Origin: Allohoeflea poritis
GTDB lineage: Bacteria > Pseudomonadota > Alphaproteobacteria > Rhizobiales > Rhizobiaceae
Direction: 5' to 3'
DNA: 64,000 bases
NCBI RefSeq assembly: GCF_027889715.1
Contig: NZ_JAPJZH010000001.1
Coordinates: 62,001-126,000 of the forward strand
The position numbers and the translations under genes were made by a program. The stretch's first letter is position 1; the number at the start of each line of letters is the position of its first letter. Shown piece after piece: positions 30,310-61,385 of this stretch. Below the pieces are notes generated by a model, which was not told where the DNA came from, ran no database searches, and saw nothing but the letters and a program-made list of their open reading frames with translations.

Positions 30310-30310
30310 T

Positions 30311-39839: not shown

Positions 39840-39924
39840 TCAGATATTGTTCCCCTGTCGGCCGGCGGCAGGATATGTTTTTGTTCCGTTGTCCACCCAT
39901 GTTGTGGTCATATTTGCAGCATTT

Positions 39925-40560
39925 TTACACCCGTGCCAATGATCCTTTTGAAAAGACATATAACTTATCTTGTGAAATCGGTTCGGAAAGCGCGGTTTCG
40001 CGGTCGAGACTTCCAAGAAGATATAGGCAGACTCTTATGACACCTGTGTGAGTGATCATGATTGTCGGAGATTTCATCTCGGACAGGAACGCCTTCAATT
40101 CGGGTATCCGCGACGCGTGGCTGTCGCCGCCCTGGGGGCGAAAATTCCAGCGGTCGGATTTGCGCGATTTGCGCTCTGCGGGAAATCGCTCCTTGACCTC
40201 GAGGGTCGTCATGCCTTCCCAGGCGCCATAGGACACCTCGCTCAATTCAGACAGGTAGCGGGCCCGCTGCACGTCCAGTTTCAGATGTCTGCATAGTTCG
40301 GTGGTGGTCTGTCGGGCACGCAGCAACGGAGAGGACAAAATTGAAAGCGTATCAGGCGTAATCTTGTTTTCCGCCAGATAACCGTTGAGCTTCATCGCCA
40401 CTATGCGCGCCTGTTCGTATCCGGTCTCGTTGAGCGGGATATCGCTTGCTCCCTGAAACCGGCCGAGCCGATTCCAGTCGGTCTGGCCGTGCCGGATGAA
40501 ATAAAGGTCCGGCAATGCGGACAGTTCCGGATTACGAATTTGCGCTGTGATATCCGTCAT
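39925..40560 (-). CDS. Histidine phosphatase family protein (phosphoglycerate mutase-like)
   Basis: The protein has 211 residues from the ATG at 40560. The RHG motif (LYFIRHGQTDWN) is followed by the second histidine region IMITHTGVIRVCLY, the acid phosphatase/PGM catalytic pair. It is a cytoplasmic phosphoesterase; the substrate (sugar phosphate or cofactor) is unknown. It starts within the last 29 bases of the epimerase gene, so the two are probably cotranscribed. Confidence 0.87.
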   Translation of the reverse strand: MTDITAQIRNPELSALPDLYFIRHGQTDWNRLGRFQGASDIPLNETGYEQARIVAMKLNGYLAENKITPDTLSILSSPLLRARQTTTELCRHLKLDVQRARYLSELSEVSYGAWEGMTTLEVKERFPAERKSRKSDRWNFRPQGGDSHASRIPELKAFLSEMKSPTIMITHTGVIRVCLYLLGSLDRETALSEPISQDKLYVFSKGSLARV

Positions 40561-41557
40561 ACCAGTCGACAAAGGCGGCAAGCCCCTCTTCAAGGGGGGT
40601 ATAGACCTTGAAATCAAAGTCGCGTTCAAGCGCAGAGGTATCGGCAAAGGTCTCGTACACATCACCCGGCTGCATCGGGAGGAACTCCTTGACCGCCTTT
40701 TGACCGGCCACCTTCTCCAGTGTGCCAATCATCTCCATCAGGTTGACGGGCTCGCTGTTGCCGATGTTGTAGAGACGGTACATCGGCGCGACTCCGGGTT
40801 GCTGTTTGTCGGGTGTCGCATCATCGGCCTGCGGCGGTGACAACAGCACCTTGACCACGCCATTCGCGATGTCATCGACATAGGTGAAATCACGGCGCAG
40901 ATTGCCATTGTTGAAAATCTTGATCGGTTTGCCGCTGCGTATGGCGCGGGTAAAAAGATAGACGGCCATATCGGGCCGCCCCCAGGGGCCGTAAACCGTG
41001 AAAAAGCGCAGGCCTGTCGTCGGGATGTTCCACAGATGGCTGTAGACATGGGCCATCAATTCATTGGATTTTTTGGTGGCAGCGTAAAGGCTTATGGGAT
41101 GATCGACGTTCTGATCGGTGCTGTAGGGCACATCCCGGCTGTTGCCGTAAACCGAACTTGAACTCGCATAGGCCAGGTGTTCCACCCCGCAGGCGCGGCA
41201 GCCTTCCAGTATGTTCATGAAACCGGAGACATTGCTTTCAATGTATGCATGCGGATTTTCCAGCGAATAGCGCACTCCGGGCTGCGCAGCCAGATGGGCG
41301 ACATGAGACGGGCCGACATCCTTGAAAATCTCGGACATTGCATGCCTGTCGGCGATATCCACTCGGTGAAAAACAAAACCGTTGCGGCCGGTTAACCCAT
41401 CCAGACGTGCCTTTTTCAGGTCGACATCGTAATAGGCGTTCATGTTGTCTATACCGACAACCTGATGGCCCTGATCCAGTAATATGCGGGCGACGTAAGA
41501 ACCAATAAATCCCGCTGCCCCGGTCACCAGAATCGGAGCTGTCGTCTGGCTGGTCAT
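40532..41557 (-). CDS. lpsL: UDP-glucuronate 4-epimerase-like (LpsL type)
   Basis: The protein has 341 residues. The Rossmann motif is VTGAAGFIGSYVA. The SDR catalytic set is S133/S134 with Y158-x3-K162. NNGNLRRDFTYVDD and FMNILEGCRACGVEHLAYAS fit bacterial UDP-GlcA epimerases such as LpsL. It would convert UDP-GlcA to UDP-GalA, a precursor for lipid A, LPS core or EPS. The start has AGGAAGAG upstream. It is divergent from ugd across 161 bases. Confidence 0.82.
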   Translation of the reverse strand: MTSQTTAPILVTGAAGFIGSYVARILLDQGHQVVGIDNMNAYYDVDLKKARLDGLTGRNGFVFHRVDIADRHAMSEIFKDVGPSHVAHLAAQPGVRYSLENPHAYIESNVSGFMNILEGCRACGVEHLAYASSSSVYGNSRDVPYSTDQNVDHPISLYAATKKSNELMAHVYSHLWNIPTTGLRFFTVYGPWGRPDMAVYLFTRAIRSGKPIKIFNNGNLRRDFTYVDDIANGVVKVLLSPPQADDATPDKQQPGVAPMYRLYNIGNSEPVNLMEMIGTLEKVAGQKAVKEFLPMQPGDVYETFADTSALERDFDFKVYTPLEEGLAAFVDWYDGYHSANS

Positions 41558-41718
41558 GGGCGCTGGTTCTCTTCCTGGCGAGTGATCGGTGGAAATCGAT
41601 GTGGTATGGAATTATTCCGCGAATTGTATATACAGCCCTAAAACCACAATGGAAATGCCGCAAATTGTCTATCGGCGGAGCGGGCCGGACAATCCAGAAA
41701 TAGACCAGTGAGGCTGCT

Positions 41719-43062
41719 TTGATCATAACGATAATCGGAACCGGTTACGTGGGACTCGTGACTGGTGTATGTCTGTCGGAATTTGGTTTCGACGTCACAT
41801 GTGTCGACAATGTCCCAGAGAAAATCGCACTCCTGAAAAACAATGTAAGCCCGATCTATGAGCCCGGCCTTGAGCAGATGATTCGCTCAAACTCGGAAGC
41901 GGGACGGCTGCATTTTCATGGCGATGTCGCGCAATGCGTGCCTGAATCCAACGTCGTTTTCCTGGCAGTCGGCACGCCTTCGGCGGCGAGCGGAGATGAG
42001 ATCGACCTCACCTATGTCTTTTCGGCTGTGGATGATATCGCCCCCCACCTGAGCGATGGCACGGTTGTCATCGTGAAATGCACGGTGGTTCCGGGCACAT
42101 GTCAAACCGTGAAGGAGCGTATCGAGAAACTGCGCCCCGATCTCGATTTCTCAGTCGTCAGCAATCCGGAATTCCTCCGGGAAGGTTCGGCGATACAGGA
42201 TTTCATGCGTCCGGACCGCGTGGTGCTGGGTATTCATGACGAACGCGGGCGCGAAGTCGCTGAAGCGCTATACCGGCCTTTGAAATTGCAGGACACACCG
42301 ATCTCCATAGCGTCCCTGTCCGGCGCGGAAATGAGCAAATATGCCTCCAACGCATTTCTCGCCATGAAGGTCAGCTTTATCAACGGGATTGCCGACCTGT
42401 GCGAAAAAGTCGATGGCAGCAACATCATAGAGGTTTCGGAGATCATCGGCCTCGACGACCGCATCGGCGACAAATTCCTGCGCGCGGGGCCCGGTTTCGG
42501 CGGCTCCTGCTTTCCCAAGGATACGCGCGCGCTGGCTGCTTTTGCGCGAAAGGTCGGTGCTCCGCAGGAACTTGTTGAAACCACAATCCGCGCCAATGAA
42601 ACACGAAAAGATAACATGGCGCGAAGGGTGCTGGAAACGATCGGCGACCCGGCCGGCAAGACCGTTGCCGTTCTCGGTATATCCTTCAAGCCCGACACCG
42701 ACGACATTCGGGAGTCCCCGGCCCTGCCGGTCGTTGAACTGCTTATAGAGAACGGAGTCAAAGTTCGCGCCTTTGATCCAAAGGCGATGGAATCGGCGGC
42801 AGAACTCTACCCTGATGTTATCTGGGCGAGCGATCCTTATGAGGCAGCGATTGGCGCCCATGCGGTCGTCATCATGACGGAATGGAACGTGCTGCGCGCG
42901 CTTGAGCTCGACAGGCTGCGGGAAGCCATGGCGGTGCCCCTGATGATCGACCTGCGAAACATCCACCGGCGCAAGGAACCGACGCGCCACGGTTTCACCT
43001 ATCTCAGTATCGGTCGCGATCGTGCCAAGCCCGCACCGGCCGAAGTTGCCGCTGTGGACTAA
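41719..43062 (+). CDS. ugd: UDP-glucose 6-dehydrogenase
   Basis: The protein has 447 residues and starts at TTG 41719, with GTGAGG upstream. The N-terminus is GTGYVGLVTGVCLSEFG. Cys264 in GFGGSCFPKDTRAL is the catalytic thiol and K207 is the conserved lysine. It oxidises UDP-glucose to UDP-glucuronate, which feeds the flanking epimerase and the decarboxylase at 45.0 kb. The last four bases overlap the convergent SDR gene. Confidence 0.93.
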   Translation: MIITIIGTGYVGLVTGVCLSEFGFDVTCVDNVPEKIALLKNNVSPIYEPGLEQMIRSNSEAGRLHFHGDVAQCVPESNVVFLAVGTPSAASGDEIDLTYVFSAVDDIAPHLSDGTVVIVKCTVVPGTCQTVKERIEKLRPDLDFSVVSNPEFLREGSAIQDFMRPDRVVLGIHDERGREVAEALYRPLKLQDTPISIASLSGAEMSKYASNAFLAMKVSFINGIADLCEKVDGSNIIEVSEIIGLDDRIGDKFLRAGPGFGGSCFPKDTRALAAFARKVGAPQELVETTIRANETRKDNMARRVLETIGDPAGKTVAVLGISFKPDTDDIRESPALPVVELLIENGVKVRAFDPKAMESAAELYPDVIWASDPYEAAIGAHAVVIMTEWNVLRALELDRLREAMAVPLMIDLRNIHRRKEPTRHGFTYLSIGRDRAKPAPAEVAAVD

Positions 43063-43739
43063 CTCGCCCAGCCGCCTGAGAACGGGATCGCCTGCCCGAC
43101 GAAGAAATCGCTCTGGTCGCTGGCCAGGAACAAAGCCAGCGCCGTGTCTTCTTCAGGCTTGGCAAGGCGGCCGAGCGGCACCTGTTCCTTCAGATTTTTC
43201 TGGAATTTCGGATTTTCCTGGAGTTCGGGCGGGTAGTAGGCGGGATTCTCGACCCAGTTCTGGGCGATCAGATTCACCTGCACATTGTGGCGCGCAACCT
43301 CCGCGCCGACCGACTTCACATAGGAAATCTGGGCGCCGCGTGCCGCACTGTAGGCGCACAGACGCCCCATCGGCCGCAACGGCACGGCGCTGCCGAAAAC
43401 AATGATCTTGCCGGATTTCCTGTCGATCATCTGGGGCAGCGTCAGCCTGACCAGGCGATGCATCGGATGAACAAGCAGGTCGAACATCTCCTGCCAGTCT
43501 GCTTCGCCCATTTCGGTCACAAGGGTTCCGTAATGGTTGGGAGCGGCCAGATTGACGATGAGAACATCAATCGCACCGGCGCTTTCGACCAATTCCGCAC
43601 ATGCGTGCTCGGAAGAGAGATCGGCACCATGGGCGATCACGTGTGCCCCCGCGCTTGTAAAACTGTCTACGCATGCAGGCCCCATATAGCGATCAGCGTG
43701 GGTGACGATGACACGTTTGTTTTTTATGGCTTCGTACAT
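43059..43739 (-). CDS. Halohydrin dehalogenase-like SDR protein
   Basis: The protein has 226 residues. Instead of the SDR GxxxGxG cofactor loop it has THADRYMG, that is T13-x4-Y18-x-G20. The catalytic set is S117-x12-Y130-x3-R134, with Arg where classical SDRs have Lys. These are the two motifs used to define halohydrin dehalogenases (HHDHs). QNWVENPAYYPPE (160-172) occupies the position of the halide-binding loop. HHDHs eliminate halide from vicinal haloalcohols to form epoxides and accept cyanide, azide or nitrite in reverse. The ATG at 43739 has AGGAAAA upstream. It sits between ugd and an exostosin-like gene. Confidence 0.75.
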   Translation of the reverse strand: MYEAIKNKRVIVTHADRYMGPACVDSFTSAGAHVIAHGADLSSEHACAELVESAGAIDVLIVNLAAPNHYGTLVTEMGEADWQEMFDLLVHPMHRLVRLTLPQMIDRKSGKIIVFGSAVPLRPMGRLCAYSAARGAQISYVKSVGAEVARHNVQVNLIAQNWVENPAYYPPELQENPKFQKNLKEQVPLGRLAKPEEDTALALFLASDQSDFFVGQAIPFSGGWAS

Positions 43740-43757
43740 AACCGATTTTCCTGGTAT

Positions 43758-44822
43758 TTATGCAACGCGCACTGTTTGATGCGTGGAATTGCCAAGTGGC
43801 GTGTGCGCCGTATCCACGAATGACTGGAATGTCTGGAGCCGCTCCGGCAGGCCGGATGCGCCCACCAACCGCTTTCGCCACCAGTCAAGATAAAGCGGCG
43901 CAAAATCAAACTCCGTCTCAAGAACCCATTCGCGTTTCTGTTCGAGATAGCCGGGTGTGACTTCCGACCAGTCATCGACAATACAGACCGGCAATTTCGC
44001 AAAAAGCGGTGAAATGCCCGATCTCGGCACAATGGGCACGGAACCAAGTAAAATTGCTTCCCAGGTGCGGTGACAATCCAACCCTTCGCCGAACGGGCTG
44101 ATCGTGAAAAGATGTTTCGTATTGTTTCGCCAGGTCAGAATGCGCTCGATATTGAGTTGCTCGAGATGGATTGTGTCATAGGCGACACTGTTGATGCACC
44201 GTAGACGATCACCCCGGCTTAGTATGTGATGCCAGTTACAATAGGCGCGTACCGATTTCTCCCTGAGCGGCGGCGCTCCCCGCCTTGTCTCATTCAACGA
44301 CCTTTCCTGAGCAACTGGCGAGGCGAAATAGCCCCACGGCCTGAACCTGGGACCACTTGAGAGCGTGTGGTAGTCCAGCCCGATCGGGAGTCTGTGTAAT
44401 TTCGGGTGATCGATGTTGCAATTCTGGCCGAACCAAGCCAGCAGCTTTGTATCTTCCAGTAGTTCCATCAGCAAATTCATCTCAATATCGGTGGTGCTGA
44501 TTTCTCCGTCGGTACAACCGGTGACCAGAATGTACTCACTGTCAAACCGTTCCCGGATACGGTCCGCGAAGGTGTGCAGGTGATTTGCCCGCAAGTGTAT
44601 TTTCGGCGGCGAGCCGCCGTTCTGAATCAGTTTTTCCAACTGTTCGGCTGACGGGGGTTTTTCTCGCGGATGCCAATAGTCACAGATCTTCTTCAGGCCA
44701 TGGCTGCCGACAAATTGGCAATTGGTTTCATCCGGTCGCCCGCCTCCAAGCCGATAACGCCAATATCGCAGGCTGGCGCCGGTGTGTCGCGTCAGGCGTC
44801 GGGTGCGTTTTCTTAGACCCAC
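43758..44822 (-). CDS. Exostosin-like (GT47-type) glycosyltransferase
   Basis: The protein has 354 residues and starts at GTG 44822, with GGGA nine bases upstream. FTISPFGEGLDCHRTWEAIL followed by GSVPIVPRS is the exostosin/GT47 nucleotide-sugar region. The N-terminal half has WFGQNCNIDHPKLHRLPIGL, as in bacterial relatives of GT47. It is cytoplasmic with no membrane segment. It is the likely consumer of UDP-GlcA, UDP-GalA or UDP-Xyl made by the neighbouring genes, but the donor is inferred only from location. It starts 198 bases from the divergent uxs gene. Confidence 0.7.
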   Translation of the reverse strand: MGLRKRTRRLTRHTGASLRYWRYRLGGGRPDETNCQFVGSHGLKKICDYWHPREKPPSAEQLEKLIQNGGSPPKIHLRANHLHTFADRIRERFDSEYILVTGCTDGEISTTDIEMNLLMELLEDTKLLAWFGQNCNIDHPKLHRLPIGLDYHTLSSGPRFRPWGYFASPVAQERSLNETRRGAPPLREKSVRAYCNWHHILSRGDRLRCINSVAYDTIHLEQLNIERILTWRNNTKHLFTISPFGEGLDCHRTWEAILLGSVPIVPRSGISPLFAKLPVCIVDDWSEVTPGYLEQKREWVLETEFDFAPLYLDWWRKRLVGASGLPERLQTFQSFVDTAHTPLGNSTHQTVRVA

Positions 44823-44954
44823 TGGTGAGTTCCCGGCTGTTCTTTGCGTCCTGGCAGTAGGTTAGCGCCAGATGATAATCCACGCCAATCGCCGTCAACT
44901 CCATGAGCTGTAAAATCAGGTTGTGACATCTGCCCTCATAAACTAAAGCTCAAG

Positions 44955-45002
44955 GCGAATGATTGGCATTCGCTGATCACAACTCGCGCCCGTCGGCGGG
45001 CG
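44955..45002 (+). other. Two hairpins in the presumed uxs leader
   Basis: GCGAATG (44955-44961) pairs perfectly with CATTCGC (44967-44973) over a 5-base loop. CGCCCG (44987-44992) pairs with CGGGCG (44997-45002) over a TCGG loop, just 9 bases before the GGGAG Shine-Dalgarno sequence. Neither is followed by a T-run. They could affect translation or transcript stability, or the first could be an operator. Confidence 0.4.
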
Positions 45003-45020
45003 GGCAGAATGGGAGATTCA

Positions 45021-45959
45021 ATGCGGGAGACTCTTGTCACGGGCGGATCCGGTTTCCTTGGTTCCAACTTGTGCGATGCGCTGCTCAAGCGCGGATACAG
45101 CGTGCTTTGCGTCGACAATTTCTTTACCGGTCAGCGCAGCAATATCAAGCACCTGCTGGGGCGTACCGATTTCGAGTTGCTGCGCCACGACGTAATCCAA
45201 CCGCTGCATGTCGAAGTCGACCGGATATACAACCTGGCCTGCCCCGCCTCCCCTGTGCATTATCAATTCGACCCCGTGCAAACCACCAAGACCAGCGTAC
45301 TGGGTGCCATCAACATGCTGGGTCTGGCCAAGCGTCTGGGCGTGCGCATCCTGCAGGCGTCGACGTCAGAGGTCTATGGCGACCCGCATGTTCATCCGCA
45401 AAGCGAAGACTATTGGGGTCGCGTCAACCCGATTGGTCCGCGCAGTTGTTACGATGAAGGAAAGCGGTGCGCCGAGACACTTTTCTTCGACTATCACAGG
45501 CAAAACGATGTGCACATCAAAGTCATGCGGATATTCAATACCTACGGTCCGCGCATGCACCCCAATGACGGCCGTGTCATCAGCAACTTCATCGTTCAAG
45601 CGCTTCAGGGAAAGCCCATCACCATCTATGGAGACGGCAAGCAAACGCGCAGCTTCTGCTATGTTGATGACCTCATTGAAGGCATGATCGGGTTCATGGA
45701 CGCTCCGGACGGGTTGACCGGGCCCGTAAATTTCGGAAATCCGAGCGAATTTTCGATGCTGGAGCTAGCCGAAGAAGTGCTGCGCATCGTGGACAGTCGT
45801 TCAGCGCTGGAATTCAAGCCATTGCCCCAGGATGATCCCGTCCAACGTTGTCCCGACATCACGATCGCCTCGACGGAACTTGACTGGAAACCGAAAGTGC
45901 AGCTGGAAGACGGCTTGAAGGAAACGGTTTCCTGGTTCCGGCATGTCCTTGAAATTTAG
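45021..45959 (+). CDS. uxs: UDP-glucuronate decarboxylase (UDP-xylose synthase)
   Basis: The protein has 312 residues from the ATG at 45021, with GGGAGA directly upstream; an ATG at 45009 has none. The Rossmann motif is [20 protein letters not shown] carries the T115 and E117 of UXS enzymes, and Y144-x3-K148 is in [20 protein letters not shown] is diagnostic of UXS versus GalE. It makes UDP-xylose from UDP-glucuronate, after ugd. Confidence 0.92.
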
Positions 45960-46000
45960 GTCGTAAACGCGATTGCCGGTGACAACCGGTTGCTCGAACG

Positions 46001-46029
46001 TTGACAACATACCCGGTAGTATGTACCTC
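46001..46029 (+). promoter_or_regulatory. Promoter and palindromic operator ahead of the TetR-led catabolic block
   Basis: TTGACA (46001-46006) is followed at 17 bases by TACCTC (46024-46029), a weak -10. Inside the spacer lies the perfect inverted repeat ACATAC-N6-GTATGT (46007-46024). It is placed to block RNA polymerase, as expected for autoregulation by the adjacent TetR protein. A second hairpin (TCTCCG/CGGAGA, 46053-46072) lies in the leader. Confidence 0.55.
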
Positions 46030-46110
46030 TTTACTCCGTGATCGACAATCAATCTCCGACAACTTGCGGAGACAACAAACCGGGTCACATCGAGGAGGAA
46101 ATACCGGAAC

Positions 46111-46761
46111 ATGTCTGCTTCGGCGACAGCAAGTCCCATTCGTCCCGTCCATGAGGACATTCTCAATGCTGCTGCCCATTGTTTTATGGAGCGCGGTTAT
46201 TCGGCGACCAGCATAGATGACGTCGCCCGCAGTCTGGGCGCCACCAAGGGTCGGATCTATCATCACTACCGTTCGAAGGCTGATCTGTTCTTTGACGTCT
46301 TTCGACACGGAATGCAGATGAATTTCGACGTTGTGACGCCGATCGCCGAGTCCCCTCGTTCGACTCTGGAAAAGCTCCGGGACATGACGAAAACGCACTG
46401 CGTCGCGATGATACGCACACAGCATTTCCAGCGTTGCGTCTGGGAAGGGGTCGAACTGCTTCAACGGGGTGCGACCACGCCTGAACAGCGTGAAGTGCTT
46501 ATTGAACTGCAGGCCATGCGCGACAACTATGCAGAGATTTTCCGTACCGTGCTTGAAGCGGCCAAACGGGAGGGTATTGCAGAGTTCGAAAGTTCAAGCA
46601 TTGCTCTGCAACTTATGTTCATGTGCCTGAATTCGCCGCTTTTTTGGTATCGTGAGCGCGAAGGTCAGGACGCATCCACAATCGAACATATCGCGAGCCA
46701 GTGCACCGTTTTTGCGTTGCGCGGCCTCGGGATGAAAGAGGAGTTGATCGCCGATGTCTGA
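46111..46761 (+). CDS. TetR/AcrR-family regulator of the catabolic block
   Basis: The protein has 216 residues from the ATG at 46111, with AGGAGG upstream. The N-terminal HTH region is SIDDVARSLGATKGRIYHHY, followed by the usual SKADLF. The C-terminal domain is helical and resembles regulators of acyl-CoA metabolism (KstR2-like in style). Acyl-CoA or CoA-thioester ligands are plausible from the downstream genes. Its last 8 bases overlap the acyl-CoA dehydrogenase start. Confidence 0.87.
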   Translation: MSASATASPIRPVHEDILNAAAHCFMERGYSATSIDDVARSLGATKGRIYHHYRSKADLFFDVFRHGMQMNFDVVTPIAESPRSTLEKLRDMTKTHCVAMIRTQHFQRCVWEGVELLQRGATTPEQREVLIELQAMRDNYAEIFRTVLEAAKREGIAEFESSSIALQLMFMCLNSPLFWYREREGQDASTIEHIASQCTVFALRGLGMKEELIADV

Positions 46762-47992
46762 GATGAATCTGGGGATTACCGACAAGCTTGCGCCGCTTCT
46801 CGAAGATGTCCGCGCAATGATGCGGGAAGACATCATTCCGGTCGAGGAAGAGTATCTGGCAGAGGTGGATGTGGGCGACCGATGGTCCCACACCGAAAGG
46901 CAAACGGAGATTCTCGAAGGTCTCAAGGCAAAAGCCAGGGAACGCGGCCTTTGGAACTTCTGGCTGACCGCCTCAGATCGCGGCTTTGGCCTCACCACGG
47001 TCGAATACGCTTATCTGGCCGAGGAAATGGGCAAGGCGAGCATCGGCGCGGAAGTGTTCAACTGCTCGGCACCTGACACGGGCAACATGGAAGTGCTCGA
47101 ACGCTACGGCAGCGAGGAACACAAGCAACAGTGGCTGACGCCCCTGCTCGCCGGCGAGATCCGCTCCGCCTATCTGATGACCGAGCCCGATGTCGCCTCC
47201 TCGGATGCAACCAATATCGCCATGCGCTGCGAACGCGACGGCGATCACTATGTTCTTAACGGCGAGAAGTGGTGGTCCTCCGGCGCCGGCGACCCACGCT
47301 GCATGATCTATATCGTCATGGTCAAAACCGGCGGCGACGATGCACCGCGCCACCAGCGCCACTCCATGATCCTGGTTCCGGCCGAAACCGCGGGCATTGA
47401 GAAATTGCGGGCCATGCAGGTTTACGGTCATGATGATGCACCGCACGGTCACCTGCACATCCGGTTCACCGATGTGCGTGTGCCCGTTGAAAACATGATC
47501 CTCGGAGAGGGCCGCGGTTTCGAAATCGCCCAAGGTCGCCTTGGGCCGGGTCGGATCCACCACTGCATGCGGGCAATCGGACAGGCCGAACGCGCACTCG
47601 AACTGATGTGCCAGCGATCTCTGCGCCGCGAAGCATTCGGAAAACCGCTGGCGAAACTCGGCGCCAATTACGACATCATTGCCGAATGCCGGATGGAAAT
47701 TGAAATGGCCCGCCTTCTGTGCCTGAAGGCGGCCTGGATGATGGACAAGGGCGATGCCCGTGCCGCTGCCCCGTGGATCAGCCAGATCAAGGTGGTGGCG
47801 CCGCAGGTGGCGCTGAAGGTGACCGATGAAGCCGTGCAGATGTTTGGCGGTCAAGGCGTTTCGCAGGACACGCCCCTCGCCCGGTCATGGACGGCGTTGC
47901 GCACCTTGCGGCTCGCCGACGGACCGGATGCCGTCCACCGCATGCAGGTCGCTCGTACCGAGCTGAAGAAATACACCCAGGAGCGCGTGTGA
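46754..47992 (+). CDS. Acyl-CoA dehydrogenase (ACAD10/11-like)
   Basis: The protein has 412 residues. YLMTEPDVASSDATNI and GHDDAPHGHLHIRFTDVRVP resemble the ACAD10/11-type acyl-CoA dehydrogenases. The C-terminal FGGQGVSQDTPLARSWTALR is the conserved end. It should introduce the 2,3-double bond into an acyl-CoA, passing electrons to ETF. It overlaps the TetR gene by 8 bases and the next gene starts 2 bases past its stop, so it belongs to the same operon. The substrate is unknown. Confidence 0.88.
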   Translation: MSEMNLGITDKLAPLLEDVRAMMREDIIPVEEEYLAEVDVGDRWSHTERQTEILEGLKAKARERGLWNFWLTASDRGFGLTTVEYAYLAEEMGKASIGAEVFNCSAPDTGNMEVLERYGSEEHKQQWLTPLLAGEIRSAYLMTEPDVASSDATNIAMRCERDGDHYVLNGEKWWSSGAGDPRCMIYIVMVKTGGDDAPRHQRHSMILVPAETAGIEKLRAMQVYGHDDAPHGHLHIRFTDVRVPVENMILGEGRGFEIAQGRLGPGRIHHCMRAIGQAERALELMCQRSLRREAFGKPLAKLGANYDIIAECRMEIEMARLLCLKAAWMMDKGDARAAAPWISQIKVVAPQVALKVTDEAVQMFGGQGVSQDTPLARSWTALRTLRLADGPDAVHRMQVARTELKKYTQERV

Positions 47993-47994
47993 CC

Positions 47995-48972
47995 ATGAAG
48001 GCCATCGTCTGCGAGGAGTTCGGCCCACTCGACAAGCTGGTCTACCGGGAGATCGACGATCCGCGTGTCAAGGACCACACCGTCCTCATCCGCCCCGAGG
48101 CCATTGGAGTCAACTATCCGGACGGGCTTCTGGCGCAGGGTCTTTACCAGGTGAAACCACCGACCCCTTTCGTGCCGGGCATGGAAGTTGCCGGCACTAT
48201 CGAAGCTGTCGGAAATGCGGTCGAAAAATTCAAACCCGGCGACCGGGTTGCGGCGCTGGGACAGCTTGGCGGCTATGCGGAACTTGCAGCCGTGCCGCAG
48301 GCGGCCGTGTTCCCCCTGCCCGACGCGATCGACACGGCGGATGCTTGCGCCCTGCTTTGCGCTTATGGCACGTCGCACCATGCGTTGAAACAGAGAGCCC
48401 AACTCCAGCCCGGAGAGACGGTCGCCGTTCTCGGCGCTGCCGGTTCGACCGGTATTGCCGCCATCCAGATCGCCAAGGCGATGGGCGCAAAGGTGATAGC
48501 AGTTGCCTCTTCACCGGAGAAACAGGCGATCGTGCGTCAAAACGGAGCCGACGAAGTCACCGGCTACGATAATCTGAAGGATGAGCTGAAGAAGCTGTCC
48601 GGTGGCAAAGGCGTCGACGTGTTGTTCGATCCCGTAGGCGGCGATGCCTTCGATGCCGCATGCCGCGCGATGGCGCGCAAAGGCCGCCTGCTGGTGGTCG
48701 GATTTGCATCCGGACGCATTCCCGAACTGCCCGTCAACCTGACACTGGTCAAGGAGTATTCCCTGGTCGGCGTGTTCTGGGGTTCGTTCACACAGCACGA
48801 GCCCGAGGTTTACGCGGACAACATGAAAGAACTGGTCGGCTGGTATCTCGAGGGCAAGGTCAAACCGTTGATCGAAGGCCGGTACCCCTTGGCTGACGCA
48901 CCTGCCGTGCTTGAGCGCGTGCTCGCACGCGGCGCCACCGGTAAACTCGTCCTCGTCCCGGAAGGAGCATGA
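47995..48972 (+). CDS. Quinone oxidoreductase-like MDR protein
   Basis: The protein has 325 residues and is a zinc-free MDR oxidoreductase. FVPGMEVAGTIEAVG is the N-terminal GroES-like part and VLGAAGSTGIAAIQIAKAMG is the NADPH-binding motif. Such proteins reduce quinones or enoyl groups; a 2-enoyl reductase role fits the surrounding acyl-CoA genes but is not proven. The start at 47995 lies two bases after the acyl-CoA dehydrogenase stop. Confidence 0.87.
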   Translation: MKAIVCEEFGPLDKLVYREIDDPRVKDHTVLIRPEAIGVNYPDGLLAQGLYQVKPPTPFVPGMEVAGTIEAVGNAVEKFKPGDRVAALGQLGGYAELAAVPQAAVFPLPDAIDTADACALLCAYGTSHHALKQRAQLQPGETVAVLGAAGSTGIAAIQIAKAMGAKVIAVASSPEKQAIVRQNGADEVTGYDNLKDELKKLSGGKGVDVLFDPVGGDAFDAACRAMARKGRLLVVGFASGRIPELPVNLTLVKEYSLVGVFWGSFTQHEPEVYADNMKELVGWYLEGKVKPLIEGRYPLADAPAVLERVLARGATGKLVLVPEGA

Positions 48973-50012
48973 CCTTGAGCGTACCGTCCGAAACATTCGC
49001 ACTCGTCCAGAAACATGACGGCTATTCCGGCAAGGCCGAAGGGCCGTCCATCGAAAGCCTTGATCTTTATCTGGATGCGGCGACCATTCCGCTTCAGGAT
49101 CTTTCTGACGGCCAGGTGCTGATCAAGATGCTGATGGCTTCGATCAACCCGTCCGATCTGCATTACATCAAGGGCGAATACGGGCATCCCCGCGTCAAGG
49201 GTGCGGCCGCCGGCTTCGAAGGCGTCGGAGAGGTTGTCGCCGCAAACGGAGCCTATGCCCAATCGCTTGTCGGAAAGCGCGTCGCTTTCACGGTCGATCC
49301 AGCCGGTTCGGGCGCGTGGGCGGATTATGCGATTACCGCGGCGAATGTGTGCATTCCGGTTCGTGAGGATATGCGAAACGAGGATGCCGCCGGCCATGTG
49401 GTCAATCCGCTGACGGCCATGGCTATGTTCGATATTGTACGCAAGTCGGAAACGTCCAGTTTCATCATGACTGCGGCCAACAGCCAGCTCTGCAAGCTGA
49501 TGACGGCGCTCGGAAGAGACGAAAACATCGCGCCGATCGCAATCGTGCGCAGGCCGGAACAGGCGGCGCATCTGGAAGAACTCGGTGCCCGGCATGTCCT
49601 TTGCAGCACTTCAGACGATTTCCAGGACTCCATCCGGGCCGTCATGAAGCAGGAGAAGCCGCGGGTCCTGCTCGACGCCGTCGCCAATCAGGTCTCGGCG
49701 GATATATTTGCAGCGATGCCGAACCGCGCCCGGTGGGTTGTCTACGGAAAGCTCGACCCGCAGCCGCCGGCCTTCAAGGAAATGGGCCAGTTCGTCTTCA
49801 TGGAAAAGCGCATCGAAGGCTTCTGGCTGACGCGCTGGTTCATGAGCACGCCGCCTGAGGAGCAAATTCGAATCATCGGGGAGGTCCAGGAACGGTTTGT
49901 ATCGGGGAAATGGCAGACCGAAGTGGGCGCGACGATCCGGTTGAAAGACGCGATGTCGGACCTTGCCGACGCATTGCGGAACGCCAATGGAAAGGTCATG
50001 CTGGTTCCGTAG
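48969..50012 (+). CDS. MDR-family oxidoreductase (2-enoyl thioester reductase-like)
   Basis: The protein has 347 residues and begins in a 4-base ATGA overlap with the previous gene. MASINPSDLHYIKGEYG and AAAGFEGVGEVVA are the GroES-like part, as in MECR/2-enoyl thioester reductases. The nucleotide-binding loop is less canonical (FIMTAANSQLCKLMTALG), so cofactor use is uncertain. The role may be reduction of an enoyl-CoA intermediate. Confidence 0.82.
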   Translation: MTLSVPSETFALVQKHDGYSGKAEGPSIESLDLYLDAATIPLQDLSDGQVLIKMLMASINPSDLHYIKGEYGHPRVKGAAAGFEGVGEVVAANGAYAQSLVGKRVAFTVDPAGSGAWADYAITAANVCIPVREDMRNEDAAGHVVNPLTAMAMFDIVRKSETSSFIMTAANSQLCKLMTALGRDENIAPIAIVRRPEQAAHLEELGARHVLCSTSDDFQDSIRAVMKQEKPRVLLDAVANQVSADIFAAMPNRARWVVYGKLDPQPPAFKEMGQFVFMEKRIEGFWLTRWFMSTPPEEQIRIIGEVQERFVSGKWQTEVGATIRLKDAMSDLADALRNANGKVMLVP

Positions 50013-50088: not shown

Positions 50089-50964
50089 GTGGACATATTG
50101 CAATTGATTGTCAGCGGTCTGGCCAACGGATGTGTTTACGGCCTCATCGCTCTCGGTTTCGTGCTGATCTACAAGGCAACCGAGTCCGTTAACTTCGCAC
50201 AGGGCGACTTCATGATGCTGGGCGCGTTCATCACGCTCGGTTTCACCAATGCCGACTATATGGGACTGCCGTTCTGGCTATCCTGTGCGATGGCGATCGC
50301 CATCATGGGCGTTCTTGGCTATCTGCTGGATCTTGTCGTCCTGCGCCGCATGTTCGGGCAGTCTCAGGTCGCTGTCGTCATTTTGACGATCGCGCTGGGT
50401 TTCGTGATCCGATTTGTCGCCGGCGCGATCTGGGGACACGAGCCGCAATCGCTGGAATCGCCCATCGCCGGTGTCGAATTGCGGTTCGGTGGCCTCGCGC
50501 TCGGCATGGACGAGATATGGGTTATCATCGTCACGGTTCTGCTCACCATATTGCTGTACTTCTTCTTCGCACGCACCAAGCTCGGCGTTGCCATGCAGGC
50601 GTCCTCTCAGAACCAGCTTGCCGCGTACTACATGGGTATCCCGGTCAAGCGGATCCATTCAATGATCTGGGCACTGTCCGGGATCGTGGCGACGATCGCC
50701 GGCATCCTGTTCGCATCCAAGGGCTCCATCGATCCGACTGCCGGACTGCTGGGGATCAAGGCCTTTGCAGCCGCTGTCATCGGCGGCTTCGGCAGCCTGC
50801 CGGGTGCTTTGCTGGGCGGCCTGATCGTCGGGCTGGTCGAGCCATTTGCGGCGCGCTACATGCCGGCAGGCTATTCGCAGATCTTCCCCTATCTCATTCT
50901 CATAATCATGCTGATTGTGCGGCCGCATGGCATCCTGTCGCAGATTCAGACGAAGAAGGTCTAG
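50089..50964 (+). CDS. livH: Branched-chain amino acid-type ABC permease LivH
   Basis: The protein has 291 residues and starts at GTG 50089, with GGGAGG eight bases upstream. It has eight or so membrane segments. LIALGFVLIYKATESVNFAQ is the LivH signature, and AAVIGGFGSLPGALLGGLIV is the C-terminal region. It forms the first permease of the HAAT-type importer with LivM, LivG, LivF and the binding protein at 55.6 kb. In this context it probably carries an organic acid rather than an amino acid. Confidence 0.92.
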   Translation: MDILQLIVSGLANGCVYGLIALGFVLIYKATESVNFAQGDFMMLGAFITLGFTNADYMGLPFWLSCAMAIAIMGVLGYLLDLVVLRRMFGQSQVAVVILTIALGFVIRFVAGAIWGHEPQSLESPIAGVELRFGGLALGMDEIWVIIVTVLLTILLYFFFARTKLGVAMQASSQNQLAAYYMGIPVKRIHSMIWALSGIVATIAGILFASKGSIDPTAGLLGIKAFAAAVIGGFGSLPGALLGGLIVGLVEPFAARYMPAGYSQIFPYLILIIMLIVRPHGILSQIQTKKV

Positions 50965-50973
50965 GGGGTCGCC

Positions 50974-52074
50974 ATGCGAATAGTCTTCAAAACCTCCTAC
51001 GACGCAGATATCCGGCTGTTCAAGCACAATGCCCAGGCATTCTGGTATCTGCTGCTTTTCGCCTTCGCGATCCTGCTGCCGTTTTTGGTCAGCGACTTTC
51101 TGATCGGTGAAGCAACGCTGGTTCTGATCTGGGCCATCTGCGGCATGGGGCTGATGCTGCTTGTCGGCCAGACGGGCCAGGCCAGTCTCGGCCATGCCGC
51201 GTTCATGGCTGTCGGCGCTTATTCGAATGTCATCTATCAGCTCAATTTCAACATGCCGTTCCTGCTGTCTTTTCCGCTCGCAGGACTGACGGCGGGGGTT
51301 GCGGGGGCCCTTGTGGCTTTGCCCACAACCCGCCTGCACGGCATCTATCTCGCCATCGCCACGCTCGCGATATCGGTGCTGACCGAAGACATCATCATCA
51401 TCCTGGAGCCGATCACCGGCGGCATCGCCGGAATATTCGCGCCCGACATCGAGATTTTCGGTTACACATTCAACCGTTACGGCAATCCGGTCGAGCTCTA
51501 CTGGCTTGTGCTGGCGATAACGTTCATCGTGATCTATGCCTACCGCAACATTCTTCGCTCACCGACCGGCCGCGCCTTTGCCGCCGTGCGCGACTCCGAG
51601 GTCTCGGCGAAGGCCATGGGCGTCAATGTCGCGCGGACCAAGATGGTAGCCTTTGCGATTTCCTGCACCATCACCGGCCTCGGCGGCGCGCTGATGGGCC
51701 ATTTCGCCACCGTCTTCACCAACGAGACCTTCAATCTGATCATATCGATCACATTGCTGCTGATCATTGTGGTCGGCGGGCTTGGAACAATTCACGGCGC
51801 ATTTTTCGGCTCCATCGTGTTTGTCATGCTGCCCTTGATGATTTCGCTGACCCGCGATGCGGTCGGCTCCCTTACAGGCTCCGGTTCGATCACGATCCCA
51901 GGCCTTGAAAGCGGTATTTTCGGCGCCATTTTGATCGGGTTCATTTTGTTCGAGCCAATGGGTCTTTATGGCCGGTGGCTCAAGATCAGGACCTATTTCG
52001 AACTCTTCCCGTTCTACCGCAAGGACATGTTCCGTCGGCAGAAGAGCTACCTCAAGACGGAGCGCACGCGATGA
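50974..52074 (+). CDS. livM: Branched-chain amino acid-type ABC permease LivM
   Basis: The protein has 366 residues. GMGLMLLVGQTGQASLGHAA and VGGLGTIHGAFFGSIVFVML are the LivM signatures. The start at 50974 lies ten bases after livH and has GGGGG upstream. The C-terminal end is basic. Its stop overlaps the livG start. Confidence 0.92.
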   Translation: MRIVFKTSYDADIRLFKHNAQAFWYLLLFAFAILLPFLVSDFLIGEATLVLIWAICGMGLMLLVGQTGQASLGHAAFMAVGAYSNVIYQLNFNMPFLLSFPLAGLTAGVAGALVALPTTRLHGIYLAIATLAISVLTEDIIIILEPITGGIAGIFAPDIEIFGYTFNRYGNPVELYWLVLAITFIVIYAYRNILRSPTGRAFAAVRDSEVSAKAMGVNVARTKMVAFAISCTITGLGGALMGHFATVFTNETFNLIISITLLLIIVVGGLGTIHGAFFGSIVFVMLPLMISLTRDAVGSLTGSGSITIPGLESGIFGAILIGFILFEPMGLYGRWLKIRTYFELFPFYRKDMFRRQKSYLKTERTR

Positions 52075-52859
52075 GTTTGCTAGAGCTTTCCAACGTTACG
52101 CTCCGCTTCGGCGGGCTGGTAGCCGTCAACGACGTTTCATTCAACGTGGAGGAAGGCGAAGTCTTCGCGCTGGTAGGGCCGAACGGCGCCGGAAAATCCA
52201 CGATCTTCAACATGATCTCGCGCTTTTATACACCAGCCGAGGGCGACATTTTATTTGAAGGCAAGAGCATTCTGGAAAAGGAAGCGCACGAGATACCCTC
52301 CATGGGCATAGCCCGCACCTTCCAGAATATCGAACTGTTCGAGCAGGCTTCGGTTCTGCAGAACCTGCTGGTCGGCCGGCACACCCACAGGCGCTCCAAT
52401 TTCGTGGCGGACATGGTCTTTACGCCGTTCGTGCGCAGCGAGGAACGCGCGCATCGGGAAGCCGTCGAACACGTCATCGATTTTCTCGATCTGCAGCCCT
52501 ATCGCGAAAAGTTCATCGCCGGCCTCCCCTATGGCGTGCGCAAGGTCGTCGAGATGGGGCGTGCATTGGCAATAAAGCCGAAGCTGCTGCTTCTGGATGA
52601 ACCGGCATCCGGTCTGTCCGTGGAAGAAACCCAGGACGTGGCTTTCTGGATCGAGGACATCAAGAAGGTCATGGGTATCACGGTGCTGATGGTCGAACAT
52701 GACATGCATCTCGTGGGAGCGGTTTCCGACCGTGTCATGGCACTCGCGGACGGGCGCATGCTGGCCATCGGATCGCCGCAGGAGGTGCAGAACGATCCCG
52801 CCGTCATCGAGGCTTATCTGGGTTCGGACGGCATGACGGATGATGGAGAAGCGGCATGA
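52071..52859 (+). CDS. livG: ABC transporter ATPase LivG
   Basis: The protein has 262 residues, with its ATG overlapping livM by four bases (ATGA). Walker A is GPNGAGKS (36-43). The signature motif is in GLPYGVRKVVEMGRAL, the degenerate form usual in LivG. Walker B is LLLLDEPASGLS. It energises the importer with LivF. Confidence 0.93.
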   Translation: MSLLELSNVTLRFGGLVAVNDVSFNVEEGEVFALVGPNGAGKSTIFNMISRFYTPAEGDILFEGKSILEKEAHEIPSMGIARTFQNIELFEQASVLQNLLVGRHTHRRSNFVADMVFTPFVRSEERAHREAVEHVIDFLDLQPYREKFIAGLPYGVRKVVEMGRALAIKPKLLLLDEPASGLSVEETQDVAFWIEDIKKVMGITVLMVEHDMHLVGAVSDRVMALADGRMLAIGSPQEVQNDPAVIEAYLGSDGMTDDGEAA

Positions 52860-53641
52860 AGCAGGACACAAATGCCCCTCTCCTCAAGGTCGATAATCTG
52901 GAGAGTTTCTACGGTCCGATCATGGCGATCCGCGGCGTCAGCCTCGAGGTCAAGGAAGGCCAGATCGTTACTGTCCTCGGCGCCAATGGCGCCGGCAAGA
53001 CGACTTTGCTGAAAACCATTTCGGGCGTTATGGACCCGGAAAAAGGCACGGTCAGGCTGCAGGGTTCGGAGATCCAGGGTTCGGCACCGGACGCGGTCGT
53101 CAACAGGGGTGTCGTTCATGTTCCCGAGGGTCGGGAGATCTTTCCGATCCTGACGGTGGAAGAAAACCTCAAGATGGGTGCCTATACGCGCTCCGATCAT
53201 GCGCAGATCGCTGCGGATATGGAGCTCGTCTACGATTACTTTCCGATCCTGAAGGAGCGACGCACGCAAGAGGCCGGTACCTTGTCCGGCGGCCAGCAGC
53301 AGATGCTTGCCATCGGGCGCGGCCTGATGACCAAACCGCGCATCATGTTGCTCGATGAACCAAGCCTTGGTCTCAGCCCATTGCTGGTCGGTGAGATCTT
53401 CACCATCATCCGCCGCCTCAACGAGGAGCAGAATGTAACGATGATGCTGGTGGAACAGAACGCCAAGGTCGCGCTTGAAGTGGCCCACTATGGCTATGTT
53501 CTTGAACTTGGGCGTATTGTGATGAGCGGCGAGGCCAAAAAACTGCAACAATCGAAAGACATTCAGGAGTTTTACCTGGGTGCGCAGCAGGAATCGCAGC
53601 GCGGACAAAGACGCTGGAAACAGCGCAAGACCTGGCGATAG
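52856..53641 (+). CDS. livF: ABC transporter ATPase LivF
   Basis: The protein has 261 residues and overlaps livG by four bases. Walker A is GANGAGKTT (42-50), the signature is LSGGQQQMLAIGRGL and Walker B is IMLLDEPSLGLS. The C-terminal tail is more basic and longer than in typical LivF (GQRRWKQRKTWR). It is followed after 17 bases by the acyl-CoA ligase. Confidence 0.93.
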   Translation: MKQDTNAPLLKVDNLESFYGPIMAIRGVSLEVKEGQIVTVLGANGAGKTTLLKTISGVMDPEKGTVRLQGSEIQGSAPDAVVNRGVVHVPEGREIFPILTVEENLKMGAYTRSDHAQIAADMELVYDYFPILKERRTQEAGTLSGGQQQMLAIGRGLMTKPRIMLLDEPSLGLSPLLVGEIFTIIRRLNEEQNVTMMLVEQNAKVALEVAHYGYVLELGRIVMSGEAKKLQQSKDIQEFYLGAQQESQRGQRRWKQRKTWR

Positions 53642-53658
53642 GCCGAAGGGAGATACAT

Positions 53659-55548
53659 ATGGGCAACATGGAGTCCATTCCGCCGCAATCGAAGATCAAT
53701 GGCGTGAGCGTCAATACGGATCTGGAAAAGGGTCCTTATTTCCTGGACGGCTGCGACACACTGCCGAAGTTGTTTCATCAACGCTGCAAAGAGCTCGGTG
53801 AGCGCACCTCCCACCGGGAAAAAGACTATGGAATCTGGTTGTCCTACTCATGGAATGATTTTTTCGAGCATTCCAAACTGATCGCACACGGATTGATCTC
53901 TTTAGGTCTCGAGCGCGGCGAAGTCGTTTCGATCCTTTCCGAGGACAACAAGGAATGGGTTTATTGCGATCTCGCAATACAGTGCGCGGGCGGCATCGCC
54001 TCAGGCATCTACACGACCGATTCCTCGAGCCAGCTATCCTATCTCGTCAACGATTCAGACAGCCGGTTCCTGTTTGTCGAAAACGATGAGCAACTGGACA
54101 AGTACCTGACCGTGCGGGATCAGATGCCGGGCCTGAACAAGGTCATCGTCTTCGACCGCGAAGGCCTGCACGATTATCACGACGATCAGGTGATGTTCAT
54201 TGAGGAGTTGTACGATCTCGGCCGTGTCCACGCCAAGAAGCATCCGGAATTGTTCGAGCAGGAGATCGCCAAATCGAAGCCTGAGGACATCTGCATCCTG
54301 GTTTACACATCCGGCACGACCGGTCAGCCGAAGGGTGCCATGATATCGCACAGCAATGTCATGTTTTCCCTGTCCATAGGCGCGTATACGCTTCCGGCTT
54401 TCGAAACCGACGAGCAGGTCTGTTTCCTGCCACTTTGTCATATCCTCGAACGCTTCATATCGGTGCTTTCTCCGATCGCCGCCAGATCGACGGTGAATTT
54501 CGCGGAAAGCCCGGAGACCGTTTTTGACAATGTGCAGGAAGTCAGCCCGCACATATTCACCGCGGTGCCAAGGGTCTGGGAGAAGATCTATTCGCGGATC
54601 TCGATCATGGTCGGCGATGCGACTCCGTTCGGCCGCTGGGCCTTCAAGCTGGCAACCTCGGCCGGTCAGGCGCGTGCCACGCTGATTGAGGACGATGAAC
54701 CTGTTCCGGCACTGCTTGAATTGCGCTACCGGATCCTGGACGCGCTTGTGCTGAAGAACATCCGCAGGATGATCGGCATGGACCGGCTGCGGCGCGGCAC
54801 GACCGGCGCTGCGCCGATCTCGCCGGACCTTTTGCGCTGGTACAAGTCAATCGGCATCGACGTGTTCGAGGGCTACGGCATGAGTGAGACCGCCGGTATC
54901 ATCTCGCTCAACATGTACGGAAAGAACAAGATCGGTACCGTCGGACAGGTCGTGCCGGGCGGCAAGGTACGGATCGGCGAAGGCGCGGAAATTCAGTACA
55001 AGGCCGGCAACGTCTTCGAGGGTTACTGGAAAAAGCCGGACAAGACGCGCGAAACCATGACCGACGACGGCTGGCTGAAAACCGGCGATGTCGGGCACAT
55101 TGACAATTCGGGTTACGTCAACATCACGGGCCGGCTGAAAGACATCATCATCACGGCTGGCGGGAAAAACATCACGCCGGCTGAGATCGAGAACAAGCTG
55201 AAATTTTCTCCTTATATTTCCGATGCCGTGATCATCGGAGACAAGCGCAAGTTCCTGTCCTGCCTGATCATGATTGACCAGGAGAATGTCGAAAAATTCG
55301 CCCAGGACAGACGTGTGCCCTTCGGAGACTTCGCATCGCTCTGCGCAACTGCGGAAGTGCAGGAACTGATCGGCGGGGTGGTCAGCGAAGTGAACGATGA
55401 ATTCGCCCGCGTCGAACAGATCAAGGCATTCCGCCTGATTGATGTCTTGCTGACCGCCGAAGACGATGAATTGACTGCCACCATGAAGCTCAAGCGCAGC
55501 TTCGTGGAGGATAAACACAAAGCGCTCATTGACGAGATGTATGCCTAA
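53659..55548 (+). CDS. AMP-forming acyl-CoA ligase (long-chain fatty acid-CoA ligase type)
   Basis: The protein has 629 residues from the ATG at 53659, with AAGGGAGA upstream. The ATP/AMP motif is YTSGTTGQPKG (about 216-226). GYGMSETAGIISLN is the adenylation motif and TGDVGHIDNSGYVNITGRLK the C-terminal hinge. Its length and style match FadD15-like long-chain ligases found beside liv transporters in alphaproteobacteria. It would trap the imported acid as a CoA thioester. The acid itself is not known. Confidence 0.9.
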   Translation: MGNMESIPPQSKINGVSVNTDLEKGPYFLDGCDTLPKLFHQRCKELGERTSHREKDYGIWLSYSWNDFFEHSKLIAHGLISLGLERGEVVSILSEDNKEWVYCDLAIQCAGGIASGIYTTDSSSQLSYLVNDSDSRFLFVENDEQLDKYLTVRDQMPGLNKVIVFDREGLHDYHDDQVMFIEELYDLGRVHAKKHPELFEQEIAKSKPEDICILVYTSGTTGQPKGAMISHSNVMFSLSIGAYTLPAFETDEQVCFLPLCHILERFISVLSPIAARSTVNFAESPETVFDNVQEVSPHIFTAVPRVWEKIYSRISIMVGDATPFGRWAFKLATSAGQARATLIEDDEPVPALLELRYRILDALVLKNIRRMIGMDRLRRGTTGAAPISPDLLRWYKSIGIDVFEGYGMSETAGIISLNMYGKNKIGTVGQVVPGGKVRIGEGAEIQYKAGNVFEGYWKKPDKTRETMTDDGWLKTGDVGHIDNSGYVNITGRLKDIIITAGGKNITPAEIENKLKFSPYISDAVIIGDKRKFLSCLIMIDQENVEKFAQDRRVPFGDFASLCATAEVQELIGGVVSEVNDEFARVEQIKAFRLIDVLLTAEDDELTATMKLKRSFVEDKHKALIDEMYA

Positions 55549-55583
55549 GCCAAATTAGAGATCTGCATTCCAAGGAGGAAACA

Positions 55584-56747
55584 ATGAAGAATCTCATGAA
55601 AACAATGGCTTTTGCCCTGGCTATGTCTGCGGCCTTCCTGCCGCAGTCAAATGCCCAGACGCAAGGAGTCACCGACACGGAAATCCTGATCGGCTCGAAC
55701 AACGACCTTTCCGGACCGTTCGCAGCGTTCGGCGCGCCGGCGATCGGCGCGGCCAAGCAGTATTTCGATGAGGTGAATGCCGCCGGCGGCGTGCACGGCC
55801 GCCAGCTCAAACTCGTGGCGGAAGATCACGCCTATCAGATGCCGAAGGCCATGCAGAACATCAACAAGCTGGTCAACTCGGACGAAGTCTTTGTCATGCT
55901 GCTTTCGCTTGGCACGCCGATGAACATCGCCAGCTTCCCGCTGCTGGAGCGCAAAGGGATTGCCAATATAAGCCCGCTCACATCGGCGCGTCAGATGCTC
56001 GAGCCGCCGGCACCATACAAGTTCGCCGGGTTCTCATCCTATTACGATCAGATGAAAGCCGGCGTGAACTACCTGAAAGAGAACAATGACAGGAAGGTGT
56101 TCTGCGCCATGTTCCTGCCGACGGACTTCGGCAAGGAAATCCAGGAAGGAACCAAGGACGGGGCAACCGAGCTCGGACTTGAATACAAGGCCGAGACGAC
56201 CCACAAGCCCGATGAACAGGATTTCGTGGGCTCCCTGACCAAGCTCAAGGATGAAGGCTGCGACGCGATCGCCACGGCGCTGACCGTGCGTCAGACGATC
56301 ACCGTTCTCGGCACGGCCAAGAAGATCGGCTGGGATGACGTCGACTTCATCGGTTCCGCAGCGGCCTTTCACACGGCAATCGCTAAGGTTCCCAACGGCA
56401 TCACGGAAGGTTTTTATGCAGCCGCCGGATGGCCGGACCTGAACACACGGCTCGACGATCCCTATGTCGCAAAGTGGGTTGAGGACTACACGGCCGAATT
56501 CGGTGAAGCGCCCAGCACTGGCGCGGTACTCGGCCGTTCGGCAGCCGAAAACCTGGTCATGGCACTTGAAGCCGCCGGGCCGGATCTGACGGCGGAAAGC
56601 TTCCTGAAAGCCATGGAAGGCCTTGACTATATCGACCGCATCACTGGTGTGAAAACAGACTACAGCACCACCGATCATCAGGGCGGCGATGCGATCATCA
56701 TCTCCAAAATCGAAGGCGGTGACTGGCAGGTCAAAGGCCAGAAATAG
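55584..56747 (+). CDS. ABC transporter substrate-binding protein (branched-chain amino acid type)
   Basis: The protein has 387 residues, with AGGAGG upstream of the ATG at 55584. The signal peptide ends LPQSNA. The mature start TQGVTDTEILIGSNNDLSG is the usual Peripla_BP_6 N-terminus. MNIASFPLLERKGIANISPL and GAVLGRSAAENLVMALEAAG are other conserved parts. It captures the ligand for LivHMGF. It lies after the ligase gene, an arrangement common for transporters of aromatic or fatty acids. Confidence 0.9.
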   Translation: MKNLMKTMAFALAMSAAFLPQSNAQTQGVTDTEILIGSNNDLSGPFAAFGAPAIGAAKQYFDEVNAAGGVHGRQLKLVAEDHAYQMPKAMQNINKLVNSDEVFVMLLSLGTPMNIASFPLLERKGIANISPLTSARQMLEPPAPYKFAGFSSYYDQMKAGVNYLKENNDRKVFCAMFLPTDFGKEIQEGTKDGATELGLEYKAETTHKPDEQDFVGSLTKLKDEGCDAIATALTVRQTITVLGTAKKIGWDDVDFIGSAAAFHTAIAKVPNGITEGFYAAAGWPDLNTRLDDPYVAKWVEDYTAEFGEAPSTGAVLGRSAAENLVMALEAAGPDLTAESFLKAMEGLDYIDRITGVKTDYSTTDHQGGDAIIISKIEGGDWQVKGQK

Positions 56748-56765
56748 TCCTGCGCGAAATGCCGG

Positions 56766-56787
56766 CCGGCGCTGTTAGAGGCGCCGG
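56766..56787 (+). other. GC-rich hairpin after the binding-protein gene
   Basis: CCGGCGC (56766-56772), 8-base loop, GCGCCGG (56781-56787). No T-run follows. It may protect the 3' end of the abundant binding-protein message or attenuate readthrough into the fadJ-type gene. Confidence 0.45.
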
Positions 56788-56849
56788 TCGAAAATGACTT
56801 TACACAATTCCAATACAGCCCGTCTCAGAGAGTTTTCCCGGTGAGTGTC

Positions 56850-58976: not shown

Positions 58977-58988
58977 GGATCAGATATC

Positions 58989-60170: not shown

Positions 60171-60182
60171 TGGAGCTCGATC

Positions 60183-61379: not shown

Positions 61380-61385
61380 GGCATC

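Follow-up and report, generated by a model that had tools for sequence, protein, structure and literature searches.

A probable halohydrin dehalogenase gene of Allohoeflea poritis and its apparent association with a TetR/acyl-CoA dehydrogenase operon

Halohydrin dehalogenases (HHDHs) are in use as biocatalysts, and little is known about the substrates they have in nature. A review of the family (Schallmey and Schallmey, PMC4989007) names two HHDH-specific motifs, T-x4-F/Y-x-G plus S-x12-Y-x3-R, and describes a nucleophile pocket that stands in for the cofactor site. For HheC, a recent paper considers it unlikely that the epoxides and haloalcohols assayed there are what the enzyme acts on in nature (PMC11976700). 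Here, we analyzed a 64,000-nucleotide stretch of the Allohoeflea poritis genome (the window; contig NZ_JAPJZH010000001.1, positions 62,001 to 126,000), in which a gene on the minus strand (43059..43739, 226 amino acids) very probably encodes an HHDH that, judging from its sequence, would remove chlorine or bromine from small alcohols via epoxide closure. The enzyme type is already known and ordinary in kind, and read from the sequence the window protein is a relative of HheB and HheD. A first-pass annotation made from the letters alone had placed the gene correctly and had called it an HHDH; this identity was corroborated by the motifs, the best Protein Data Bank (PDB) matches (HheB and HheD), the fold and a tree position outside the short-chain dehydrogenases/reductases (SDRs) that depend on nicotinamide adenine dinucleotide (phosphate), NAD(P).

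HheB of Corynebacterium sp. N-1074 (PDB 4zd6, 5b12) shares 49-50% identity with the window protein, is nearly equal in length and also carries Tyr in motif 1. The two proteins differ in the loop formed by residues 160-172, where HheB has His at the position of N161 and Trp at that of P170, and also in the stretch that separates Ser from Tyr in motif 2. HheD2 and HheD8 (PDB 7b73, 8xxb; 48-49% identity) adopt the same fold and have a similar loop (N-F/W-V-x-N-P), but their motif 1 contains Phe instead of Tyr. HheC (PDB 1pwx, 5kwe, 5kvc) has both motifs and the fold in common with the window protein, but it is longer and only 26-29% identical.

When the translation was checked by script, the six motif residues named in the first-pass annotation were found in their places. 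Motif 1, T13-x4-Y18-x-G20 (residues 13-20; 43680..43703, minus strand), replaces the NAD(P) glycine loop, and motif 2, S117-x12-Y130-x3-R134 (43338..43391, minus strand), provides the catalytic triad with Arg for Lys. These agree with the family motifs published in PMC4989007. Neither GxxxGxG nor Y-x3-K, the two hallmarks of NAD(P)-dependent SDRs, is present in the protein. The loop QNWVENPAYYPPE (residues 160-172; 43224..43262, minus strand) aligned with the HheC segment G-P-N-Y-L. We take this segment to be the halide-binding loop of HheC, in agreement with the correspondence proposed in the annotation. In the same alignment, the motifs were in register across HheB, HheD2, HheD8, HheC and 6a41, and an SDR of the FabG type from the same genome had TGASGGIG and Y-x3-K at the corresponding places. 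The dinucleotide site and the halide pocket, which the annotation had proposed to inspect in a structure, were judged from sequence motifs and overall fold: the glycine loop is gone, the fold is HheB/HheD-like, and the residues of the predicted pocket-lining motif are present.

The motif pair is not a chance resemblance, since it was found in none of the 10 homologues inspected that are SDRs of the NAD(P) type (seven from the same genome, three from others), whereas 23 of 29 class-level homologue loci carried both motifs under the strict pattern, and 26 did so when Trp was accepted at the aromatic position of motif 1. Motif 2 was present in all 29. Motif 1 was missing in L050 and L058, which lack Thr at position 13, and in L056, a partial frame of 161 amino acids without the N-terminus. 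When 42 homologues selected for their similarity were aligned, with start codons chosen by script, S117, Y130, R134, Y168 and P170 were invariant. G20 was conserved in 41 rows (the remaining one has no N-terminus), N161 in 41, an aromatic residue (F, Y or W) at position 18 in 41, and T13 in 38 (the others have two Ser, one Ile and one gap). The dN/dS ratio among orthologs was 0.05-0.09, which is a rough value because dS was high (1.3-4.4) and only 5 of 10 pairs gave computable values.

In the phylogenetic tree, 41 rows including HheB, HheC, HheD2, HheD8 and 6a41 were separated from nine SDRs with a support of 100/98; HheA and HheG lay outside its sampling. Placement among the NAD(P)-dependent SDRs, which the annotation had named as an outcome that would disprove its reading, was not seen. 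Five class-level homologues (L050, L053, L054, L056, L058) were left out of this tree, and these five plus L051 (six of 29) were left out of the structure-model alignment A1; the residue counts given above include all of these rows. The predicted fold, modeled as a monomer, was HheB/HheD-like with HheB as best structural match. Grouping with HheB was supported in one tree (92/92) and was not resolved in the other. Uniting the window clade and its sister with the D clade was marginally rejected in an approximately unbiased (AU) test (p-AU 0.045), which is weak since the tested clade was named after the first tree had been seen. The Rhizobiaceae HHDH clade itself was supported in the tree with the nine SDRs (100/99) and in the AU-test tree (93/97).

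To describe the distribution, we searched genome samples, scoring the best seven candidates per genome; all counts include the window genome. Matches were found in 5 of 61 relatives (E ≤ 1e-30) and in 9 of 394 genomes of the family sample (E ≤ 1e-28), the latter comprising seven orthologues (at least 71% identity) and two SDRs with a normal glycine loop. The order sample gave 2 matches among 397 genomes, the second of which is 35% identical and carries both motifs, and the phylum sample gave 5 among 398. The class sample yielded 40 of 385 (E ≤ 1e-28), of which 29 outside the window genome were inspected for motifs, and this frequency does not agree with the annotation's description of a small family. 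Named orthologues occur in Nitratireductor sp. XY-223 (84% identity) and in three metagenome-derived Rhizobiaceae genomes (70-73%), and their locus is the same as that of the window; sugar genes corresponding to those of the window were not found at the site in the three metagenome-derived ones. The class and family to which the sampled genomes are assigned here were deduced from these named orthologues.

Comparison of the locus among relatives suggests that the partner of the gene is an operon for fatty-acid-like breakdown and not the adjacent sugar genes. In all seven carriers, which belong to two genera, the HHDH gene occupies one site beside an operon for a TetR-family regulator, acyl-coenzyme A (CoA) dehydrogenase, quinone oxidoreductase and a Liv ATP-binding cassette (ABC) transporter. 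In four of them (G026, G151, G220, G001), HHDH and tetR are immediate neighbors in divergent orientation. In the window genome (G000) and in G006 and G007, the left part of the locus consists of peptide-type ABC genes, histidine phosphatase, epimerase 1, ugd and HHDH, and the right part of a glycosyltransferase-like gene, epimerase 2, tetR, acyl-CoA dehydrogenase, two quinone-oxidoreductase-like (QOR) genes and the Liv genes. In G026, G151 and G220 (genus g20), ABC genes and histidine phosphatase are followed by HHDH divergent from tetR; in G026, HHDH is separated from the phosphatase gene by a carbamoyltransferase gene (L025:10756-12333; Pfam Carbam_trans N and C), and the corresponding gaps of G151 and G220 are of similar size. 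Thus, the sugar genes of the window stand beside HHDH in three carriers and were not found there in the other four, three of which were covered for about 10 kb on each side, while the contig of G001 ends 2.3 kb past HHDH. Conversely, four congeners without HHDH have epimerase 1 and ugd (G002, G005) or ugd and epimerase 2 (G003, G004) at the site, and all four possess the tetR/acyl-CoA operon with flanking operons as in the carriers. The sugar genes are therefore not tied to HHDH, and they appear to be independent cargo at a site of variable content. On a locus tree built from five proteins of the operon in 11 genomes, two changes of HHDH presence were needed. The HHDH tree largely agreed with it, the exception being the position of G001, which is weakly supported (85/58).

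Taken together, we regard HHDH as an accessory gene that has long been retained at a variable site next to a TetR/acyl-CoA breakdown operon and not as part of uridine diphosphate (UDP)-sugar synthesis, and we are rather confident of the joint statement that the enzyme is an HHDH and its sugar neighbors are incidental. The annotation had read the surroundings as a nucleotide-sugar locus and had found an HHDH there unexpected. This reading did not hold, and since the TetR/acyl-CoA operon is the constant neighbor and the sugar genes are not, the oddity largely dissolves. The variable slot spans positions 39900-46100 between two conserved operons, and among the relatives it contains sugar genes, HHDH and a glycosyltransferase-like or carbamoyltransferase gene in various combinations.

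Upstream of tetR (46111..46761, plus strand; assigned by family search and locus comparison), we found an operator-like palindrome, AACATACCCGGTAGTATGTT (46006..46025, plus strand), which has one mismatch in the window and overlaps a TTGACA box. The 23 bases TTGACAACATACCCGGTAGTATG (46001-46023) were identical in all 11 loci. With up to three mismatches, the 20-base palindrome had a single site in the window and none in 100 shuffles. In G026, G151, G220 and G001, it is situated in the intergenic region of HHDH and tetR, 68-113 bp upstream of the start of HHDH, so that one regulator could serve both; the TetR protein would be expected to bind there, and HHDH and the operon may be co-regulated. 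In the window, two sugar genes stand between HHDH and the palindrome, and no operator was found at the glycosyltransferase/HHDH promoter, the sole window site being that at tetR. A looser pattern with one mismatch gave the tetR site and one or more others in each of eight genomes, and these additional sites are unsure since a reversed-pattern control yielded 0-4 matches per genome. The second operator-like site of the window genome (ACATACCGAGTAGTATGT; L093 near 1501-1518) is flanked by an SDR gene in divergent orientation and a gene resembling flavin adenine dinucleotide (FAD) oxidoreductases (names by eye).

By analogy with solved relatives and with the mechanism outlined in PMC4989007, Ser117 would hold and position the substrate hydroxyl and Tyr130, its pKa lowered by Arg134, would take the proton. 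The resulting alkoxide would displace the vicinal halide to form the epoxide, and the halide would enter a pocket with motif 1 and the 160-172 loop as its lining, at the site used by other SDRs to bind NAD(P). The reaction would be cofactor-free and reversible, with epoxides being opened by anions in the reverse direction. As to its role, the enzyme may remove halohydrins or epoxides that the acyl-CoA pathway encounters. We tentatively prefer this idea, which is also the most testable one, although we consider it somewhat less than an even bet. A stronger version, in which HHDH, under the control of TetR, specifically serves an operon for lipid or branched-acid import and beta-oxidation and converts substrate halohydrins (e.g., chlorohydrin lipids) to degradable epoxides, appears unlikely. 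Among the open-access papers listed in literature searches, none dealt with this HHDH clade or with an acyl-CoA link, as judged by title and start of abstract.

Nearly as likely as the preferred role is that the same enzyme generally detoxifies halohydrins or epoxides from the environment, with no tie to either neighboring operon. According to PMC11976700, the HheC gene shares an operon with a gene for an epoxide hydrolase, and HheC is regarded as detoxifying haloalcohols. On the Novosphingobium plasmid pSA2 (L089:6805-8678), a homologue is located 11 bp downstream of an epoxide hydrolase gene, and the homologue of G1096 overlaps a glutathione S-transferase gene with a TauD-type gene adjoining. 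Outside the two genera the neighbors vary, which also favors plain detoxification. Plain detoxification, however, does not readily account for one site beside one operon in all carriers of both genera and only two changes on the locus tree. In the window genome, the epoxide hydrolase Pfam families EHN and LEH were not found, in a search limited to these two that did not extend to other alpha/beta-hydrolase types. The pSA2 homologue belongs to a series of genes that includes aldehyde and acyl-CoA dehydrogenases, is annotated only as SDR and has Ser for Thr in motif 1 and His for N161. In an all-against-all comparison of 18 regions (the window stretch and 17 loci), the only neighbors shared beyond the two Rhizobiaceae genera were acyl-CoA dehydrogenases, ABC proteins, two proteins common to L069 and L070, one of them P450-like by eye, and open reading frames antisense to HHDH.

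A role in the sugar pathway, in which HHDH is co-transcribed with the upstream glycosyltransferase-like gene and has as its substrate a halohydrin or epoxide belonging to a surface glycan or to the precursor of one, is quite improbable. The two genes lie on the same strand of the window with a gap of 18 bp, and together with the sugar genes they recur in three of the seven carriers. This role was weakened by synteny, given the four carriers and four congeners in which sugar genes and HHDH occur apart, and among the three carriers with sugar genes HHDH is 84 and 77% identical, whereas the glycosyltransferase-like protein reaches only 57 and 51%. Finally, an ordinary or NAD(P)-dependent SDR merely resembling an HHDH is hardly credible and was rejected on motifs (lost glycine loop, Arg for Lys), tree separation and structure, even though the fold is that of SDRs, Pfam and NCBIfam yield SDR families only (with none reaching the cut-off among 25 of 186 NCBIfam models listed) and the RefSeq label of the Novosphingobium homologue is 'SDR family oxidoreductase'.

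Among the neighboring genes of the window, ugd (UDP-glucose 6-dehydrogenase-like; 41719..43062, plus strand) is convergent with HHDH, and their 3' ends overlap by 4 bp. Family searches supported this gene, as the annotation had proposed, and two nucleoside diphosphate (NDP)-sugar epimerases/dehydratases (40532..41557, minus strand; 45009..45959, plus strand). The putative glycosyltransferase (43758..44822, minus strand) was seen, among the seven HHDH carriers, in the three with sugar genes, and its exostosin-like label is tentative: the only Pfam match, RXYLT1_C, was sub-threshold (20.3 bits, cut-off 27). The conserved operon continues from tetR with acyl-CoA dehydrogenase and the two QOR genes (46754..50012, plus strand; family searches and loci). 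The remainder (50089..62525, plus strand), named by reading the translations by eye, comprises a LivHMGF-like ABC transporter, acyl-CoA ligase, a LivK-like binding protein, a FadJ-like protein, thiolase and two acyl-CoA dehydrogenases; its LivH-to-LivK homologues are present in relatives. Several glycosyltransferase-like open reading frames (28780-33842, plus strand; by eye) lie past the peptide ABC genes.

The value of these data is that an HHDH clade paired with a TetR/acyl-CoA operon lends itself to tests of its natural role. If HHDH were indeed a TetR-controlled partner in lipid breakdown, this would be a natural, non-xenobiotic role for HHDHs. A clade kept at one site, with a divergent promoter and a strictly kept palindrome in four genomes, offers a handle (inducer, regulon, knockout) on the purpose of the enzyme.
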